A stretch of DNA of 64,000 bases. Source: Thauera sp. (GTDB lineage Bacteria > Pseudomonadota > Gammaproteobacteria > Burkholderiales > Rhodocyclaceae). Below, piece after piece: positions 47,024 to 53,729 of this stretch. How positions within the stretch are numbered: the stretch's first letter is position 1; each line of letters begins with the position of its first letter. Where the stretch lies: assembly GCA_024235615.1 (NCBI GenBank), contig JACKMB010000001.1, positions 868,001 through 932,000 of the forward strand. Reading direction: 5' to 3'. The position numbers and the translations under genes were made by a program. The notes under the pieces were generated by a model. The model had not been told where the DNA came from. It ran no database searches and was given only the letters and a program-made list of their open reading frames with translations.

Positions 47024-47040
47024 TGTCGGAATTTCTTACA
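47024..47040 (+). promoter_or_regulatory. imperfect dyad TGTCGG-N5-CTTACA upstream of the Tat-protein operon
   Basis: TGTCGGAATTTCTTACA is an imperfect inverted repeat (TGTNNG / CNNACA) in the 227-bp region before the gene at 47224, 183 bp from its start. It resembles motifs I recall upstream of exported-protein genes in betaproteobacteria that carry exosortase systems, but I cannot verify that here. It could be an enhancer-type regulator site. Confidence 0.35.
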
Positions 47041-47176
47041 CTGCGCCCTTTTCGCGATCCGTCCCGCCGAGCCATAGGCACGCCAAATCAGGCACTTGCC
47101 GTGTCGATTGAACTCCGGGCGTGAAATTTGCTACTAAAGGCCTGAAGTATCGGAAAGTCGGCTGAAGTTGCGCGGC

Positions 47177-47223: not shown

Positions 47224-47793
47224 ATGTCCAACTCCCTGCCCGAAAATTCGGTCGAACGCCGCCGAAAGGTCCTCAAGGGTGCGCTCGCCGCATCCGGCGT
47301 GGTGACCATGGGCTACAGCGGGTCGGCGCTGGCGTCGTTCAACTGCATCCAGAAGACGACCCTGGAGGCGCCGTTCAATGGCCGCCAGCTCGTCCAGGTG
47401 ATCCCGGAGGCGTACCTCGGCTGGAAGTGGCAGTCGATCACCGTCAGCGCAGACGGCGACGCCGACGGTTCGCATACAGGGTGGTTCAATTACCTCGGGG
47501 TGAATTACAGCGTTGCGTTGAACAAGCTTGGTAGTGCCTGGAGCGCGACCAGCAACCCGGAGCAGGCCTCGACGACGCCCCCGATCAGCCCGACGCTTGT
47601 CCCGATGTTCTTGCTGGTTCTGTACGACACGTCGGGCTCGGGCTACTCCCCAGCGACCCCCTCCCCCTACGTTGCCGGTGCCGCTGCCACCCCGGGCGGT
47701 AACCTGCCCGCGGAATTGCCGCAACCCATCACCGACTCCTGCCACGCCTCGCTCAACCCGGGCACGAGCGGTGGCGGAACCAGCGGAGGCTGA
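47224..47793 (+). CDS. small Tat-signal protein of unknown function, possible substrate of the downstream modification genes
   Basis: I do not recognise a domain in this 189-residue protein. It has a twin-arginine signal (ERRRKVLKG at 11-19, hydrophobic core, likely cleavage after ALA at 37). The mature body has two cysteines: Cys41 just after the cleavage site, and Cys173 in ITDSCHASLNPG. The end is GTSGGGTSGG. The middle is Ser/Thr/Pro/Gly-rich with YLGVNYSVALN and FLLVLYDTSGSGYSP. Codon third positions are less uniformly G or C than in neighbours, which hints at transfer or low constraint. It is the first gene after a TATAAT promoter, with the PqqD-like gene 7 bp downstream. A role as precursor or target of the modification system is inference from position. 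Confidence 0.7.
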   Translation: MSNSLPENSVERRRKVLKGALAASGVVTMGYSGSALASFNCIQKTTLEAPFNGRQLVQVIPEAYLGWKWQSITVSADGDADGSHTGWFNYLGVNYSVALNKLGSAWSATSNPEQASTTPPISPTLVPMFLLVLYDTSGSGYSPATPSPYVAGAAATPGGNLPAELPQPITDSCHASLNPGTSGGGTSGG

Positions 47794-47800
47794 AGCGGGG

Positions 47801-48085
47801 GTGCAAGCAACCGTCGCCCCCTCGCCGCTGCGCTGGTTGGAAGACTACTGCCTGTCCATGGACGGGCAGTTCGTTTTTCTGGACCCCGTCTCCTGGCAGA
47901 CCCACCTTCTCACCGAAGGCGCCGCGCTGGTGTTGCGCGAGGCCGCGCTGGCGATCGAGGAGGCGCGCTTCGACGCCTTCCGGGACGAGGTCGTCGAGGC
48001 CGGCGGCTGGCCGCCCGCGCTGGAGCAGCTCGCCAATACGCTGAACAGCCTGCACCACCATCCGGGCGGACGCGCGCACGGATGA
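47801..48085 (+). CDS. PqqD-like peptide chaperone, HPr-rel-A type
   Basis: The 94-residue protein has the short winged-helix-like pattern of PqqD/RiPP-recognition proteins: WLEDYCLSMDGQFVFLDPVSWQTHLLTEGAALVL split over residues 12-45, then two helices (ALAIEEARFDAFRDEVVEA; ALEQLANTLNSL). PqqD proteins bind a leader peptide and present it to modifying enzymes. The version beside an HprK-related kinase has its own family (HPr-rel-A, as I recall from TIGRFAM/NCBI naming). The start is GTG 47801, with GGAGG at 47785-47789 eleven nt upstream inside the preceding gene. The stop overlaps the kinase ATG (ATGA). Confidence 0.8.
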   Translation: MQATVAPSPLRWLEDYCLSMDGQFVFLDPVSWQTHLLTEGAALVLREAALAIEEARFDAFRDEVVEAGGWPPALEQLANTLNSLHHHPGGRAHG

Positions 48086-48954
48086 TCGAGGCCACGCCCT
48101 ATCGGGTGCTCGACGTCGGCGCGGCGAAGCTCGCGCTGCATTCGCCGATCGAGCGCCTGCACGCCGACCTCGACCGCGTCTATCCGCATCTCCCCGGGAC
48201 CACCGACAGCGGCTTCGCCGACGTGCGCGTGTCGCTGCTGCCCGGCTCGCCCCTGCGCCTGCGCGGCCGCCAGGTGAGCCTGTGGTCCGAGGGCGAGCGC
48301 CCCTTCGAACCCTACCCGATCCACAGCGCCCTGCCGCTCTTCGAGTGGGGCAGCAACTACCTGCTGAGCCAGCGCCTGAACGCCTACCTGCTGCTGCACG
48401 CGGGCGTGGTGGCCCGCGACGATCTGGCGCTGATCCTGCCCGCCTCCCCCGGCTCGGGCAAGACCACGCTCACCTGCGCGCTCAATCTGGCCGGGTGGCG
48501 CTTCCTCTCCGACGAGTTCGCGGTCATCGACCCGGACACCGGCGAGGTGCTGCCCATGGTCCGCCCCGCCCCGCTCAAGAACCGCTCGATCGCGGTGATC
48601 GGCGAGCGCGACGCCGCGGTGCTCGGCCCGCTCTATCCGGGCACACGCAAGGGCGACGTCGCCCACTTCGTCCCCGACCGCGACAGCACGCTCGCCCGGC
48701 ACCGCCGCGCGCGCCCGCGGGCGGTTATGTTCCCGCGCTTCGAAGCGGGCGCGCGCCTGCACTGCAAACCGCTCGACAGCGCCACGGCGGTGATGCGCCT
48801 GGGCTTGAACAGCTTCAACTACCGCGCCCTCGGCCCGGTCGGCTTTCACGCCGCCGTCGAACTCGCGCGCCGGACAAAGGCCTGGGAGCTGCACTACGGC
48901 GATCTCGACGAGGCGATCGCCTGCATCGAAACCCTGTTCGCGAGCCTGCCATGA
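48082..48954 (+). CDS. HprK-related kinase A
   Basis: The 290-residue protein resembles the C-terminal catalytic domain of HPr kinase/phosphorylase. LLHAGVVARDDLALIL leads to the P-loop ASPGSGKTT at 121-129, then WRFLSDEFAVID (139-150) supplies the acidic Walker B-like site, followed by RPAPLKNRSI. It lacks the HprK N-terminal domain, and no HPr or PTS gene is nearby, so HPr is unlikely to be the target. Members of this group occur with a PqqD-like protein and a nucleotidyltransferase. The likely reaction is phosphorylation of a peptide or protein presented by the chaperone; that is inference. It overlaps both neighbours by 4 nt. Confidence 0.85.
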   Translation: MIEATPYRVLDVGAAKLALHSPIERLHADLDRVYPHLPGTTDSGFADVRVSLLPGSPLRLRGRQVSLWSEGERPFEPYPIHSALPLFEWGSNYLLSQRLNAYLLLHAGVVARDDLALILPASPGSGKTTLTCALNLAGWRFLSDEFAVIDPDTGEVLPMVRPAPLKNRSIAVIGERDAAVLGPLYPGTRKGDVAHFVPDRDSTLARHRRARPRAVMFPRFEAGARLHCKPLDSATAVMRLGLNSFNYRALGPVGFHAAVELARRTKAWELHYGDLDEAIACIETLFASLP

Positions 48955-50054
48955 GCCCCCGCGCATCCGCCGAGACCGCCTTGCTGCTGCGCGCCCTGCA
49001 TGCGCCGATCGAACTCGACGAGCCGGGCTGGGACAGCTTGCTGCGGCGCGCTCGCGCCAGCGGGCTGCACGCGCGGCTGGCGGCAGCACAGGCCGCCACG
49101 CCGGGGCTTCCCGATGTGGTGCGCCGTCACTTTCTCTCGGCCACCCGGATTGCGGCCTACCGGCGCAAGCTGATGGAGGCGGAGCTGTTCCAGCTCGCTG
49201 CGCTGTGCGACACCGGCTTTCCGGTCGTCCTGCTCAAGGGCGCCGCCTACGCCCTGCAGCGACGTCGCATGGCCACCGGCCGCTTCGTCTCGGATGTCGA
49301 TCTGCTCGTCCCGGCCGCCCATCTGCGCACGATGGAGCAGGCCTTGCGTGCCGCCGGCTGGCGCAGCGAAGCGCTTTCGCCCTACGACGAGCGCTACTAC
49401 CGTGACTGGAGCCACGAGACGCCACCGCTGCGCTTTCCCGGGCACAGCCTGGAGCTCGACCTGCACCACGCCATCACCCCGGTCACCGGCAGCCTCGCCT
49501 TCGACCCCGCGCCGCTGTTTGCGCGCGCCGAGCCGATCGCCGGTACGCCCTTCCATGCGCTCGCCACCGAGGATCAGGTCCTGCACGCCTGCGTACACTG
49601 CTTCCACGATGGCGATCTCGCCCTGCGCGTGCGCGAAGTGGTGGATATCGACGGCCTCCTGCGCGAGCTGGCCGGCCAGGCCGGATTCTGGGACCGGTTG
49701 CTGGCGCGCGCAGCCGAACTCGGCCTGCAGCGCCCGCTCTGGTATGGGCTGCATTTCGCCCGTGCGTGGCTGGACTGCCCGGTTCCCGGCGCCGTCCTCG
49801 CCGCCCTGCCCCCGCCGGCGGCGCCGCTGCGCAGGATCATGGACACGCTCGTCGCGCTGACGATGCTCCCCGGCGACCTGGACGGCCCGCCTTCGCCGGG
49901 CGTGCGCCTTGCCCGCGCGGCGATGCTCGCGCGCTACCACCGCCTGCGCATGCCGGCGCACCTGCTGCTGCCGCATCTCGTGCGCAAGACCCTGCTGCGC
50001 CTGCGCGCAAGCGTCGCAGCCAAAAAAGAAGCGCCCGACGCGGGCGCTCCCTGA
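48951..50054 (+). CDS. nucleotidyltransferase family protein (NTP_transf_5-like) of the HPr-rel-A locus
   Basis: The 367-residue protein has an all-helical start (1-80), then PVVLLKGAAYALQ (91-103) and GRFVSDVDLLVPAAHL (110-125) with the catalytic-looking Asp115 and Asp117. LELDLHHAI, which may hold the third acidic residue, follows later. This is the pattern of the NTP_transf_5 group. Such enzymes transfer a nucleotide, and here the acceptor may be the same peptide or protein handled by the kinase and chaperone. The ATG overlaps the kinase stop. The last nine codons contain the terminator of the convergent grxD gene, which fixes an AKKEAPDAGAP tail of probable non-functional character. Confidence 0.82.
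   Translation: MSPRASAETALLLRALHAPIELDEPGWDSLLRRARASGLHARLAAAQAATPGLPDVVRRHFLSATRIAAYRRKLMEAELFQLAALCDTGFPVVLLKGAAYALQRRRMATGRFVSDVDLLVPAAHLRTMEQALRAAGWRSEALSPYDERYYRDWSHETPPLRFPGHSLELDLHHAITPVTGSLAFDPAPLFARAEPIAGTPFHALATEDQVLHACVHCFHDGDLALRVREVVDIDGLLRELAGQAGFWDRLLARAAELGLQRPLWYGLHFARAWLDCPVPGAVLAALPPPAAPLRRIMDTLVALTMLPGDLDGPPSPGVRLARAAMLARYHRLRMPAHLLLPHLVRKTLLRLRASVAAKKEAPDAGAP
50022..50048 (-). terminator. grxD terminator embedded in the 3' end of the nucleotidyltransferase gene
   Basis: On the minus strand an 8-bp stem AGCGCCCG / CGGGCGCT with a 3-nt loop is followed, after TC, by a run of six Ts (50022-50027). It lies 31 bp past the grxD stop and overlaps the last codons of the plus-strand gene ending at 50054. 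Confidence 0.85.
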
Positions 50055-50078: not shown

Positions 50079-50402
50079 TCACTCGGCGACGCCGGCGTCC
50101 TTCAGCATCTGCTGCAGCTCGCCGCTGTCGTACATCTCGCGCATGATGTCACTGCCACCGACGAACTCGCCCTTGACGTAGAGCTGCGGAATGGTCGGCC
50201 AGTTGGAGAAATCCTTGATGCCCTGGCGGATCTCGGGGTCGGCGAGCACATTGACCGCGAGCACCTCGCGCACGCCGCAGCCCTTGAGGATCTGCACCGC
50301 GGTGGAGGAGAAGCCGCACTGCGGGAACTGGGGCGTGCCCTTCATGTAGAGCACCACGGCGTTGTTGGTGACCTGATCGCGGATGACGTCCTGGATGTCC
50401 AT
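50079..50402 (-). CDS. grxD: monothiol glutaredoxin, CGFS type
   Basis: The 107-residue Grx4-type glutaredoxin has CGFS at 29-32 in QFPQCGFSS, the cis-proline loop [19 protein letters not shown] and the glutathione-binding GG-D motif. CGFS glutaredoxins carry and transfer [2Fe-2S] clusters, often with BolA. It is last in the hemA-prfA-prmC-grxD run, 64 bp after prmC. The ATG at 50402 gives the expected N-terminus [11 protein letters not shown]. Confidence 0.96.
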
Positions 50403-50466
50403 GCTGGAAACCTGAAAAAGTTGAGTTAAACAGTCGGGAAATAATAGGGGTTGGGCGGCGGCAGCG

Positions 50467-51336
50467 TCAACGCGATTCGCGCGTTTTTCGTCCCAGCCAG
50501 CGCCCGCCCGAGACACGCTCGATGCCGGCGAGGTCTGCCCACGAGGCGATCGCGGCGAAGCCGGCGTCGGCGAGCAGACCACGCGCCGACGCAGCCTGGT
50601 CGTAACCGTGCTCGAGAAACAGCCAGCCACCGTCCACCAGGCGCGCCGGCGCACCGGCGATGATCTCGGCGAGGTCGTCGAGACCCTGCGGTCCGGCGGC
50701 GAGCGCGCCGCGCGGCTCGAAGCGCACGTCGCCCTGCTCCAGGTGCGGGTCGCCCGCGGCCACATAGGGCGGATTGGAGACGATGAGCTCGAAGTGCTCG
50801 TCGCCGAGCGCGCCGAACCAGTCGCTCTGCACGAAGGAGACGCTCGCCCCCAGCCTGGCGGCGTTGGCCATCGCCACCCACAGCGCCTCGCGCGAGCGGT
50901 CGAGCGCGACCACCTCGGCCGCCTCGAGCTCGAGCGCCAGCGTCACCGCGAGCGCGCCGCTGCCGGTGCCGAGGTCGAGCACGCGCAGGCCGCGGCGGGC
51001 GGGAAAGTGGGCGAGCGCGAGCTCGACCAGCAGCTCGGTCTCCGGGCGCGGGATCAGCACCGCCGGGGTGACGAGGAACTCGCGCCCGTAGAACTCGCGC
51101 GTGCCGGTGAGATAGGCCACCGGCTCGCCGGCGGCGCGACGTTCGACGAGGGCGCGATATTCGGCCCAGTCCTCGGTGGCGAGCGTCTGCTCGGGCCACG
51201 CCACCAGGCGCGCGGCCGGGCACTGCAGCACGTGGCGCAGCAGCACGCGCGCGTCCATCTGGTCGATGCGCGCGCGCGCCCAGGCGAGCGCGCCGGCGAT
51301 GTCGGTCGCGTCGGCGGAGGGCGCCGCAGGGCTCAT
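50467..51336 (-). CDS. prmC: peptide chain release factor N5-glutamine methyltransferase
   Basis: PrmC methylates the glutamine of the GGQ motif in release factors RF1 and RF2. The 289-residue enzyme has an N-terminal helical domain, [24 protein letters not shown], the SAM-binding [17 protein letters not shown] and the catalytic SNPPYV. The ATG at 51336 overlaps the prfA stop (ATGA), pairing the methylase with its substrate. Confidence 0.96.
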
Positions 51337-52415
51337 GCCTCCTCCCCGAGCGCCGCGAGCAGCTCGGCCTGGTGCTCGAGCACGAGCGCGTCGACGATTT
51401 CGTCGAGCTCGCCCTGCATCACCGCGTCGAGCTTGTAGAGGGTGAGGTTGATGCGATGGTCGGTGACGCGCCCCTGCGGGAAGTTGTAGGTGCGGATGCG
51501 CTCGGAGCGGTCGCCGCTGCCCACCAGGCTCTTGCGCTGCGCGGCCTCGGCGCTCTGCTGCGCGCGCACCCTGGCGTCGTAGAGGCGTGCGGCGAGCACC
51601 GCCATCGCCTGCGCCTTGTTGCGGTGCTGCGAGCGGTCGTCCTGGCACTCGACGACGATGCCGGTCGGGATGTGCGTGATGCGCACCGCCGAGTCGGTCT
51701 TGTTGATGTGCTGACCGCCCGCCCCCGAGGCGCGGAAGGTGTCGATGCGCAGGTCGGCGGGGTTGATGTCCACCGCCTCGACCTCGTCGGCCTCGGGCAG
51801 CACGGCGACGGTGCATGCGGAGGTGTGGATGCGCCCCTGGGTCTCGGTGACCGGGATGCGCTGCACGCGGTGACCGCCGGATTCGAACTTGAGCCGGGAG
51901 TAGGCGCCGTTGCCCACCACGCGGGCGATGACCTCCTTGTAGCCGCCGAGGTCGGATTCGCTCGCCGACACGATCTCCACCTTCCAGCGCTGGCGCTCGG
52001 CGTAGCGGGTGTACATGCGCAGCAGGTCGCCGGCGAACAGCGCCGCCTCGTCGCCGCCGGTGCCGGCGCGGATCTCCAGGAAGAGGTTGCGTTCGTCGTT
52101 GGGGTCGCGCGGCAGCAGCGCGCGCTGCAGCTCGGCCTCGAGCGCCCCGATGCGCGCCTCGCCGTCGGCGAGCTCGAGCTCGCCGAGCTCGCGCATCTCG
52201 GGGTCGGCGAGCAGCTCGCGCGCGGTGGCGCAGTCGGCCTCGGCCTGGCGATGCTCGCGGTACAGCGCCACCACCGGCTCGATCTCGGCGCGCTCGCGCG
52301 AGAGCTCGCGGAAGACGTTCATGTCGCGCGCGCCGTCCTCGGAGGCGAGCGTGCGGTCGAGCTCTTCGAGCCGGTTGGCGAGGTGTTCGAGTTTGTCGCG
52401 GATGCTCTGCTTCAT
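51333..52415 (-). CDS. prfA: peptide chain release factor 1
   Basis: RF1 ends translation at UAA and UAG. The 360-residue protein has the anticodon-like PxT tripeptide region ([20 protein letters not shown], containing PVT) and the catalytic GGQ in [15 protein letters not shown]. The length is standard. It is 57 bp downstream of hemA and translationally coupled to prmC, the conserved hemA-prfA-prmC order. Confidence 0.97.
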
Positions 52416-52472
52416 GGCGGTGGACGGAGGCGCGCGCGCCGCGCGCGGGCGGCGGCCGACGCAGCCGTTCGG

Positions 52473-53729
52473 CTAGTGGGGGTCGCGGGACAGGTTGAAG
52501 AGCTCGCGCACCACACGGCCGGCTTCGACCTTGTGCTCGCCCTCGGCCTGGTTCAGGAAGCGGGTGGGACCGTGCATCAGCTTGTTGGTGAGACCGTGCG
52601 AGAGCGCCTCGAGCACGCGCTGGGGATCCTCGCCCTTGGCGAGCAGGCGCACCGCGCGCTCGAGCTCGGCCTGGCGCAGGCTCTCGGCGTGCTCGCGCAG
52701 CGAGCGGATCACCGGCACCGTCTCGCGCGCCGACATCCAGTGCAGGAAGCCGTCGACCCGGGTGATGATGATCTGCTCGGCCTCGATCACCGCCTGCTGG
52801 CGCGACTCCATTCCGGCCTCGACCACCTGGGCGAGGTCGTCCACCGTGTACAGGAAGATGTCGTCGAGTTCGGAGATCTCGGGCTCGATGTCACGCGGCA
52901 CGGCGAGATCGACCATCACCATCGGGCGATGGCGGCGCGCCTTGACCGCGCGCTCGACCATGCCCAGGCCGACGATCGGCAGCGGCGCGGCCGTACAGGA
53001 GACCACCACGTCGAAGCGCGGCAGCGCGTCGCCGATCTGGTCGATGCGCATGGTGCTGGCGCCGAAGCGGTCCGCCAGGGCCTTGGCGCGCTCCTCGGTG
53101 CGGTTGGCCACCGTCATCGACTTCGGCCGGGCGCCGCCGAAGTGGGCGGCGCAGAGCTCGATCATCTCGCCGGCGCCGATGAACAGCACGTGCTGGTCGG
53201 AGACGCGCTCGAAGATGCGCTCGGTCAGGTGCACCGCGGCCGCGGCCATCGACACCGTGTTGGCGCCGATCGCGGTGGTCGAGCGCACCTCCTTGGCCAC
53301 CGCGAAGGTATTCTGGAACAGCTTGTGCAGCAGCACGCCCAGGGTGCCTGCCTCCTCGGCGTAGCGCGCGGCGTCCTTGACCTGGCCGAGGATCTGCGGC
53401 TCGCCGATCACCATCGAGTCGAGCCCGCTCGCTACCCGGAAAACATGGCGGATGGCGTCGCGCTGCGGGTAGGAATACAGGTAGGGCGAGACCTCGGCGA
53501 GCGCGAGGCGATGGAAGCGCGCCAGCCAGTCGGCCGCATGCTGCGGCTGCTCGGCGGCGAAATAGAGCTCGGTGCGGTTGCAGGTCGACAGGATCGCCGC
53601 CTCGCGCACCGAATCCGTGTGAGCCAGATCGTGCAGCGCCTGCCCCATGCGCTCGGGCTGGAACGCGACGCGTTCGCGGATGGCGAGCGGCGCGGTGTGG
53701 TGGTTCAAGCCGAGGGCGAAGAGTTGCAT
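52473..53729 (-). CDS. hemA: glutamyl-tRNA reductase
   Basis: HemA reduces glutamyl-tRNA to glutamate-1-semialdehyde, the first committed step of tetrapyrrole synthesis. The 418-residue protein has catalytic Cys50 in [21 protein letters not shown], the NADPH-binding [16 protein letters not shown] and the C-terminal dimerisation helix. I selected ATG 53729 ([15 protein letters not shown], the universal N-terminus); the frame open upstream crosses the tRNA gene. It is first of hemA-prfA-prmC-grxD. Confidence 0.97.

Follow-up and report, generated by a model that had tools for sequence, protein, structure and literature searches.

A putative protein-modification cassette tied to the XrtA/PEP-CTERM matrix system in a Thauera relative, with a Tat-signal protein as its candidate substrate

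Introduction

The closest described relatives of the system considered here are found in lasso-peptide biosynthesis. HprK homologues in lasso clusters are described as placing a phosphate on the precursor's C-terminal Ser (PMC9266682, PMC8498205, PMC7533575). PsmN, which is homologous to nucleotidyltransferases, is described as attaching one or two hexoses there; a review leaves open whether it does so itself. A comparable gene set, the HPr-rel-A cassette, is described by the family models TIGR04352 (HprK-related kinase A), TIGR04353 (PqqD-like protein) and PF14907 (NTP_transf_5 nucleotidyltransferase), which name no substrate. Here, we describe such a cassette in a 64,000-nt stretch of DNA (contig JACKMB010000001.1, positions 868,001 to 932,000), hereafter called the window, from a relative of Thauera; the kinase of T. 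phenylacetica is 95% identical to that of the window. We propose that this operon serves to modify a protein and belongs to the XrtA/PEP-CTERM matrix regulon; its enzymes would tag a Ser of the twin-arginine translocation (Tat) signal protein encoded beside it, hereafter called the client. We hold this proposal to be probable, if only just.

The HPr-rel-A kinases are common yet orphan enzymes: a kinase scoring over the TIGR04352 cut-off was found in 50 of 300 genomes of the order, 108 of 249 of the family and 61 of 398 of the phylum. We found no open-licence paper on HPr-rel-A, HprK-related kinase A, TIGR04352 or TIGR04353, which is no proof of absence, and none that joins an HprK-related kinase with PqqD, or HprK or PqqD with both exosortase and PEP-CTERM. 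The second system of relevance is XrtA/PEP-CTERM protein sorting. In Haft et al. (2006; PMC1569441), promoters of PEP-CTERM genes are described as a 17-nt motif with TTTACA at its end, separated by 32-92 nt from a sigma-54 box; HPr, HprK, PqqD and nucleotidyltransferases are not mentioned.

The four-gene operon

As the initial annotation had it, four tightly packed genes lie head to tail on the plus strand. The client gene (47224..47793, 189 aa) is separated by 7 nt, from stop to start, from the gene of a PqqD-like protein (47801..48085, 94 aa, GTG start), which is followed by those of the HprK-related kinase A (48082..48954, 290 aa) and the nucleotidyltransferase-like protein (48951..50054, 367 aa); the last three overlap by 4 nt each. 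The kinase exceeds the TIGR04352 cut-off (328.2 bits vs 200) and the transferase the PF14907 gathering cut-off (190.2 bits vs 31.2; E 6e-56). In gene set and order, the operon agrees with the HPr-rel-A cassette. One over-cut-off kinase and one client copy were found in the window's genome.

The residues pointed out earlier are also in place, namely R13-R14, C41, C173 and the GTSGGGTSGG end of the client, the P-loop of the kinase, ending K127-T128-T129, and D115 and D117 of the transferase. The client begins with a twin-Arg signal and a hydrophobic stretch (VERRRKVLKGALAASGVVTMG), as in a Tat signal, and is predicted to be exported. Its C-terminal end, NPGTSGGGTSGG, has no Pro-Glu-Pro followed by a hydrophobic stretch and a basic end, and the client is not a PEP-CTERM protein. 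No credible match to it was obtained in NCBIfam or Pfam, the one NCBIfam match (E 0.016) being far under cut-off.

A Tat-signal client accompanies the kinase

The cassette was followed through 132 kinase loci: the window, 49 further over-cut-off loci from the order sample, 7 named loci picked up by the likeness of their kinases to that of the window and taken without TIGR04352 scoring, 40 regions from 39 of 102 further over-cut-off family genomes (hand-picked, about one per genus plus six congeners), and loci from 35 of the 55 further over-cut-off phylum genomes. A partial match (L094) and loci under the cut-off (L170-L174 and L081-L086) are excluded from the counts. In the genome profile searches the best candidates per genome were scored, so that absences, those of PrsT included, are soft. 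A transferase match lies within about 1 kb of the kinase, on the same stretch, in all 49 other order loci, and the transferase was matched in 128 of the 132 loci (none in L143, L146, L168 and L169). In 119 loci, the open reading frame (ORF) immediately preceding the kinase was recognised as PqqD-like.

The initial annotation had named the Tat protein as the obvious substrate and had suggested checking whether such a protein recurs near the kinase. It does so in 126 of the 132 loci; in 120 of them the client lies upstream, and in the other 6 it follows the transferase. Five loci without a local client (L142, L143, L147, L165 and L169) have one elsewhere in the same genome; these distant clients were sought with a profile of the client type predicted by each locus's kinase, and all five carry a twin-Arg signal and the expected C-terminal motif. 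The proposed substrate thus passes the test of locus association (131 of 132 loci with a client), and the initial interpretation as a whole is partly supported.

Region controls rule out a chance neighbour. Under the same ORF rules, Tat-like ORFs occur in 44 of 49 upstream regions, compared with 6/49, 8/47 and 8/47 in control regions; with a Ser-x3-Ser-type motif added, the figures are 41 of 49 against 0, 3 and 2. A scan that forbade Pro in the hydrophobic core overlooked many clients and was replaced by another.

The kinase tree also tracks the client family. Mapping client families onto it takes 12 changes, compared with 62.1 for shuffled labels (none of 200 shuffles was as low); the kinases of client family B0 form one side of a branch (support 100/98), and families A and B1 need 4 and 5 changes, respectively. 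This shows co-inheritance of kinase and client, not binding, because shared ancestry alone would also cluster the labels.

A conserved Ser-x3-Ser site in otherwise unlike client families

Clustering of the mature parts of the 126 clients gave family A (64), B0 (30, including the window), B1 (12), a Sphingomonad type (9), C (5), A2 (4) and two singletons. These families are unknown to the libraries searched, and nearly all retain a Ser-x3-Ser site, which in the window is S172-C-H-A-S176. The conservation among clients makes S172-C173-H174-A175-S176-L177 (47737..47754, plus strand) the candidate modification site.

The eight Thauera-like clients, the window's included, share, after the signal, only C41, P50, G152, P168, S172, C173, S176 and G189. 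The GTSGGGTSGG tail, which had been pointed out earlier, is rejected as a signature, since only its final Gly is invariant among these eight. The C-termini of seven of them (window and L087-L093 together make up the eight) are Gly-Gly and that of the eighth is Asp-Gly. Across 24 of the 30 B0 clients, chosen by hand for alignment, near-invariance is confined to an early Cys, a Trp and both site Ser. The pattern [ST]-C-x-x-S-h stands near the C-terminus in 27/30 B0, 12/12 B1 and 9/9 Sphingomonad-type clients, against shuffle expectations of 0.033, 0.021 and 0.002, respectively, and C-W-x-S at the C-terminus is invariant in all 12 B1 clients.

In family A the site is found near the mature N-terminus; the longer domain after it has conserved Cys, Gly, Trp and Asn residues of its own. 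The expectation of conserved C-terminal residues thus holds for the window's family, with S-C-x-x-S just before the tail, and fails in the largest one. In an alignment of 21 family-A clients, invariance is limited to a Trp, a Phe and both Ser of the N-terminal Ser-x3-Ser; with all 64 aligned, no column scores higher than the two of the site, where Ser stands in 63 and 62 clients. A looser family-A pattern matches 55 of the 64, compared with 3.5 from shuffles. We rejected the idea that the family-A site is the same motif as elsewhere: when this family was left out of training, its site ranked first in 10 of 64 clients (median rank 9.5 of about 170), which supports no more than the Ser spacing. 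For the other families the site ranked first in 54 of 56, a figure that is partly circular because the site-picking rules favour Cys and Trp, and the shuffle control was relied on instead. It is important to note that the rules for motif and site were adjusted to these same data, so that safer evidence comes from the alignments and from the controls by shuffling and by region.

The Cys of the motif is absent from family C and from the clients of L049 and L050. Within families B0, B1 and the Sphingomonad type, an N-terminal Cys and the motif Cys go together: 49 of 51 clients have the two, and the remaining 2 (L049 and L050) have neither, a pairing that hints at a disulfide formed after export. 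The L049 and L050 clients are related to each other; both have lost the two Cys and kept the two site Ser.

Promoter and link to the XrtA/PEP-CTERM regulon

The tie to the XrtA/PEP-CTERM matrix system, to which the cassette appears to belong, was missed by the initial annotation and is new here. Upstream of the client gene lies a PrsR-type enhancer motif, motif 1 of PEP-CTERM promoters (TGTCGGAATTTCTTACA; 47024..47040, plus strand), which has one mismatch to TGTCGG-N5-TTTACA in that it ends in CTTACA. After 76 nt it is followed by a sigma-54-type box, GG-N10-GC (47117..47132, plus strand), with 3 mismatches to TGGCACG-N4-TTGCT. Spacer and box agree with the published promoter type, and regulation by PrsR and sigma-54 is predicted from them; the TGTCGG half of motif 1 was taken from the window itself, and the window's match is thus not independent.

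With at most one mismatch and at most 420 nt upstream, TGTCGG-N5-TTTACA precedes 75 of 124 testable clients, the window included, while the expectation drawn from the rest of the same loci is 0.004 per 420-nt stretch. A sigma-54-like box (at most 3 mismatches) stands behind motif 1 in 66 of these 75, compared with 2 of 75 on the other side, at a median spacing of 75 nt. The window's genome has 24 TGTCGR-N5-YTTACA sites vs 1 for the reversed pattern; judged by eye, 17 of them precede ORFs with a PEP-CTERM end, one precedes the client and six precede neither.

Co-occurrence points in the same direction. In the 300 order genomes, PrsT is over its cut-off in 50 of 50 kinase-positive genomes vs 27 of 250 others (Fisher 1.4e-37, with no correction for kinship; the kinase-positive genomes span 17 families). 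Some cassettes have genes of the matrix system nearby, such as PrsT (L033 and L037), PrsK with an EpsB-type transferase (L046), an EpsB-type transferase (L040) and a nucleotide-sugar dehydrogenase (L033), and the ORF cluster containing PrsT spans 14 of the 50 order loci. The window's own cassette lies outside such an exopolysaccharide locus, with PrsT about 194 kb away. In the phylum sample, a PF09721 exosortase was matched in 32 of 61 kinase-positive and 49 of 337 other genomes; an exosortase as a strict phylum-wide partner is thus unsupported.

Catalytic residues of the kinase and the transferase

The active-site residues of both enzymes are intact. H106, K127, T129, D144 and E145 are retained in 132 of 132 kinases, and K96, G97, R111, D115, D117, Y149, H155, D170 and H172 in all 128 transferases matched. 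A profile of 29 kinases has HPr(Ser) kinase/phosphorylase as its best match in the PDB (1jb1, with 2qmh and 1ko7; E 6e-4). The match spans about 55 residues and aligns the His, the P-loop Lys and the Asp pair; at the second acidic place the cassette kinases differ from HPr kinase in having Glu, in 132 of 132. The substrate of the cassette kinase is probably not HPr. The earlier remark that no phosphotransferase system protein is nearby stands for the seven annotated flanking genes, which are those for which it was examined.

Proposed mechanism

The gene set, the client, the conserved site, the co-inheritance of kinase and client, and the regulon are supported by comparison of this and related genomes; the residue phosphorylated, the second group, the order of steps, the role of PqqD, export and the role outside the cell are what we infer. 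In the proposed scheme, PrsR and sigma-54 would switch on the client gene together with its three modifying proteins. In the cytoplasm, the PqqD-like protein would bring the client to the HprK-like kinase, which would phosphorylate one of the two Ser in Ser-x3-Ser; the second, S176 of the window's client, is the likelier target. To the phosphoserine, the nucleotidyltransferase would then add a second group, either a nucleotide or, as in pseudomycoidin, a hexose. Finally, the Tat system would export the modified client, which would act in the exopolysaccharide/PEP-CTERM matrix.

A modification that depends on ATP or another NTP has to take place in the cytoplasm, and Tat exports folded proteins; together, these two points would explain why the clients carry Tat signals.

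Comparison with known systems and alternative explanations

The lasso systems, as described in print (PadeK and ThcoK, and PsmK with PsmN for pseudomycoidin), resemble the scheme: their substrate is gene-encoded and modified at a Ser by an HprK-like kinase, a nucleotidyltransferase follows the kinase, and the cluster includes a PqqD-type protein. They differ in that the putative substrate here is a full-size 189-aa Tat-signal protein instead of a short precursor, the site is an internal Ser-x3-Ser, the promoter is of the PEP-CTERM type, and the kinase motif is H-K-D-E where the published descriptions give H-K-D-D for lasso kinases. Neither a protease nor a macrolactam cyclase of the lasso type is found in the operon or among its seven annotated neighbours. 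As for XrtA/PEP-CTERM sorting, promoter type, co-occurrence with PrsT and a frequent shared neighbourhood are common ground, whereas the client has a Tat signal in place of a PEP-CTERM tail. To the HPr-rel-A models, the present analysis adds the families of Tat clients and the tie to the regulon.

The operon can also be read in other ways. The Tat protein could be the long precursor of a ribosomally synthesised and post-translationally modified peptide, whose C-terminal core, around S-C-x-x-S, would receive a phosphate or a nucleotide and then be cleaved off and set free as a small product. The recurrence of PqqD, HprK-like kinase and nucleotidyltransferase in lasso-peptide clusters would fit, as would the position of the site near the C-terminus of a hypervariable protein in the window's family; the absence of protease and cyclase genes just mentioned does not, and family A, with 64 of the 126 clients, has its site at the mature N-terminus ahead of a longer conserved domain. 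We consider a released peptide distinctly unlikely. It is slightly less so, yet still unlikely, that the enzymes act on a small molecule, a sugar intermediate or another protein, the Tat protein being merely a co-regulated matrix protein. The cassette does often lie among exopolysaccharide genes, and PEP-CTERM proteins have the same promoter type without being cassette substrates. Against this, the client adjoins the kinase in so many loci across several otherwise unlike families, its Ser pair is conserved, its family is tracked by the kinase tree, and for five loci lacking it, the predicted client did turn up elsewhere in the genome.

The site itself might have a structural role, built around a disulfide that joins the N-terminal Cys to the motif Cys, and not be a place of modification. 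The joint presence or absence of the two Cys in B0, B1 and the Sphingomonad type accords with this; but L049 and L050 lose both Cys while keeping both site Ser, and family A conserves both Ser more strongly than any other residue, Cys included. We regard a structural site as unlikely and as the least probable of the three alternatives.

The proposal of a client-tagging cassette has its own difficulties, and the following points weigh against it. The window's PqqD-like protein stays below the TIGR04353 cut-off (17.7-17.8 vs 35 bits), in which it departs from the HPr-rel-A models, whereas 7 of 7 PqqD proteins tested from other loci exceed it; at 13 of the 132 loci no PqqD-like ORF was recognised. 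No client was found for L151, the L034 client has no site, and that of L134 has Thr as its second Ser. A site model trained on the other families finds the family-A site no better than chance (with Ser masked, 12/61 vs 8.1 expected), and the co-inheritance of kinase and client may also have come from common descent. The link to the matrix is not universal, because motif 1 (at most one mismatch) is absent from 12/12 B1 and 9/9 Sphingomonad-type clients and no PF09721 exosortase was matched in 29 of the 61 kinase-positive phylum genomes. Phosphorylation or nucleotidylation of the client, finally, is suggested by analogy.

Neighbouring genes and other observations

The seven annotated flanking genes are argH, a Ser/Thr kinase gene with a cyclic nucleotide monophosphate domain, a fructosamine kinase gene, grxD, prmC, prfA and hemA. 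The last four, on the minus strand (50082-53729 of the window), converge on the cassette, and at 12 of the 50 order loci, the window included, ORFs of the prfA/hemA clusters are no more than 6 kb from the cassette. A G+C-rich inverted repeat noticed by eye at the end of the transferase gene (50030-50048) may be a terminator shared with the convergent grxD. None of the four proteins had a match in PADLOC at E 0.01, and the reading as an anti-phage system was rejected. Upstream of the cassette in L046 (2739-4880), an asparagine-synthase-like amidotransferase matches the XrtA-system amidotransferase under cut-off and, weakly and also under cut-off, a lasso cyclase.

A family-A profile gave 36 matches in the 300 order genomes, of which 30 include the site and one begins immediately behind it; judged by their coordinates, these 31 are located at cassettes. 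The remaining 5 begin beyond the site and fall in ORFs of 1046-3467 residues, two of them in genomes without a kinase match; the flanks of these five matches were not inspected for a site. The 3467-residue ORF belongs to the window's genome (L225, G000:C2:190452-200853) and matches the client domain of family A, though not the segment with Ser-x3-Ser. About 400-500 nt before its first start codon stand two motif-1 sites, and it may share the PEP-CTERM regulon.

Significance

What the modified client might do outside the cell invites a further suggestion, which we put forward as rather unlikely: an activated or sugar-bearing phosphoserine made on an exported protein could serve as the anchor or primer that joins exopolysaccharide, or PEP-CTERM proteins released by exosortase, to the matrix. 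In Haft et al. (PMC1569441), a figure legend leaves open the periplasmic nucleophile for sorting. The client could not be the only acceptor, because 27 PrsT-positive genomes have no kinase. If true, the suggestion would mean a phosphoserine-linked bond between protein and polysaccharide in bacteria, and would make the client a candidate for the periplasmic nucleophile of exosortase in cassette-bearing genomes.

The proposal that the operon tags its Tat client would supply the missing target of a widespread and unexplained enzyme set. By naming a family of substrates, a candidate serine and the promoter that tells when to look, it would open this orphan set to a simple test by mass spectrometry.

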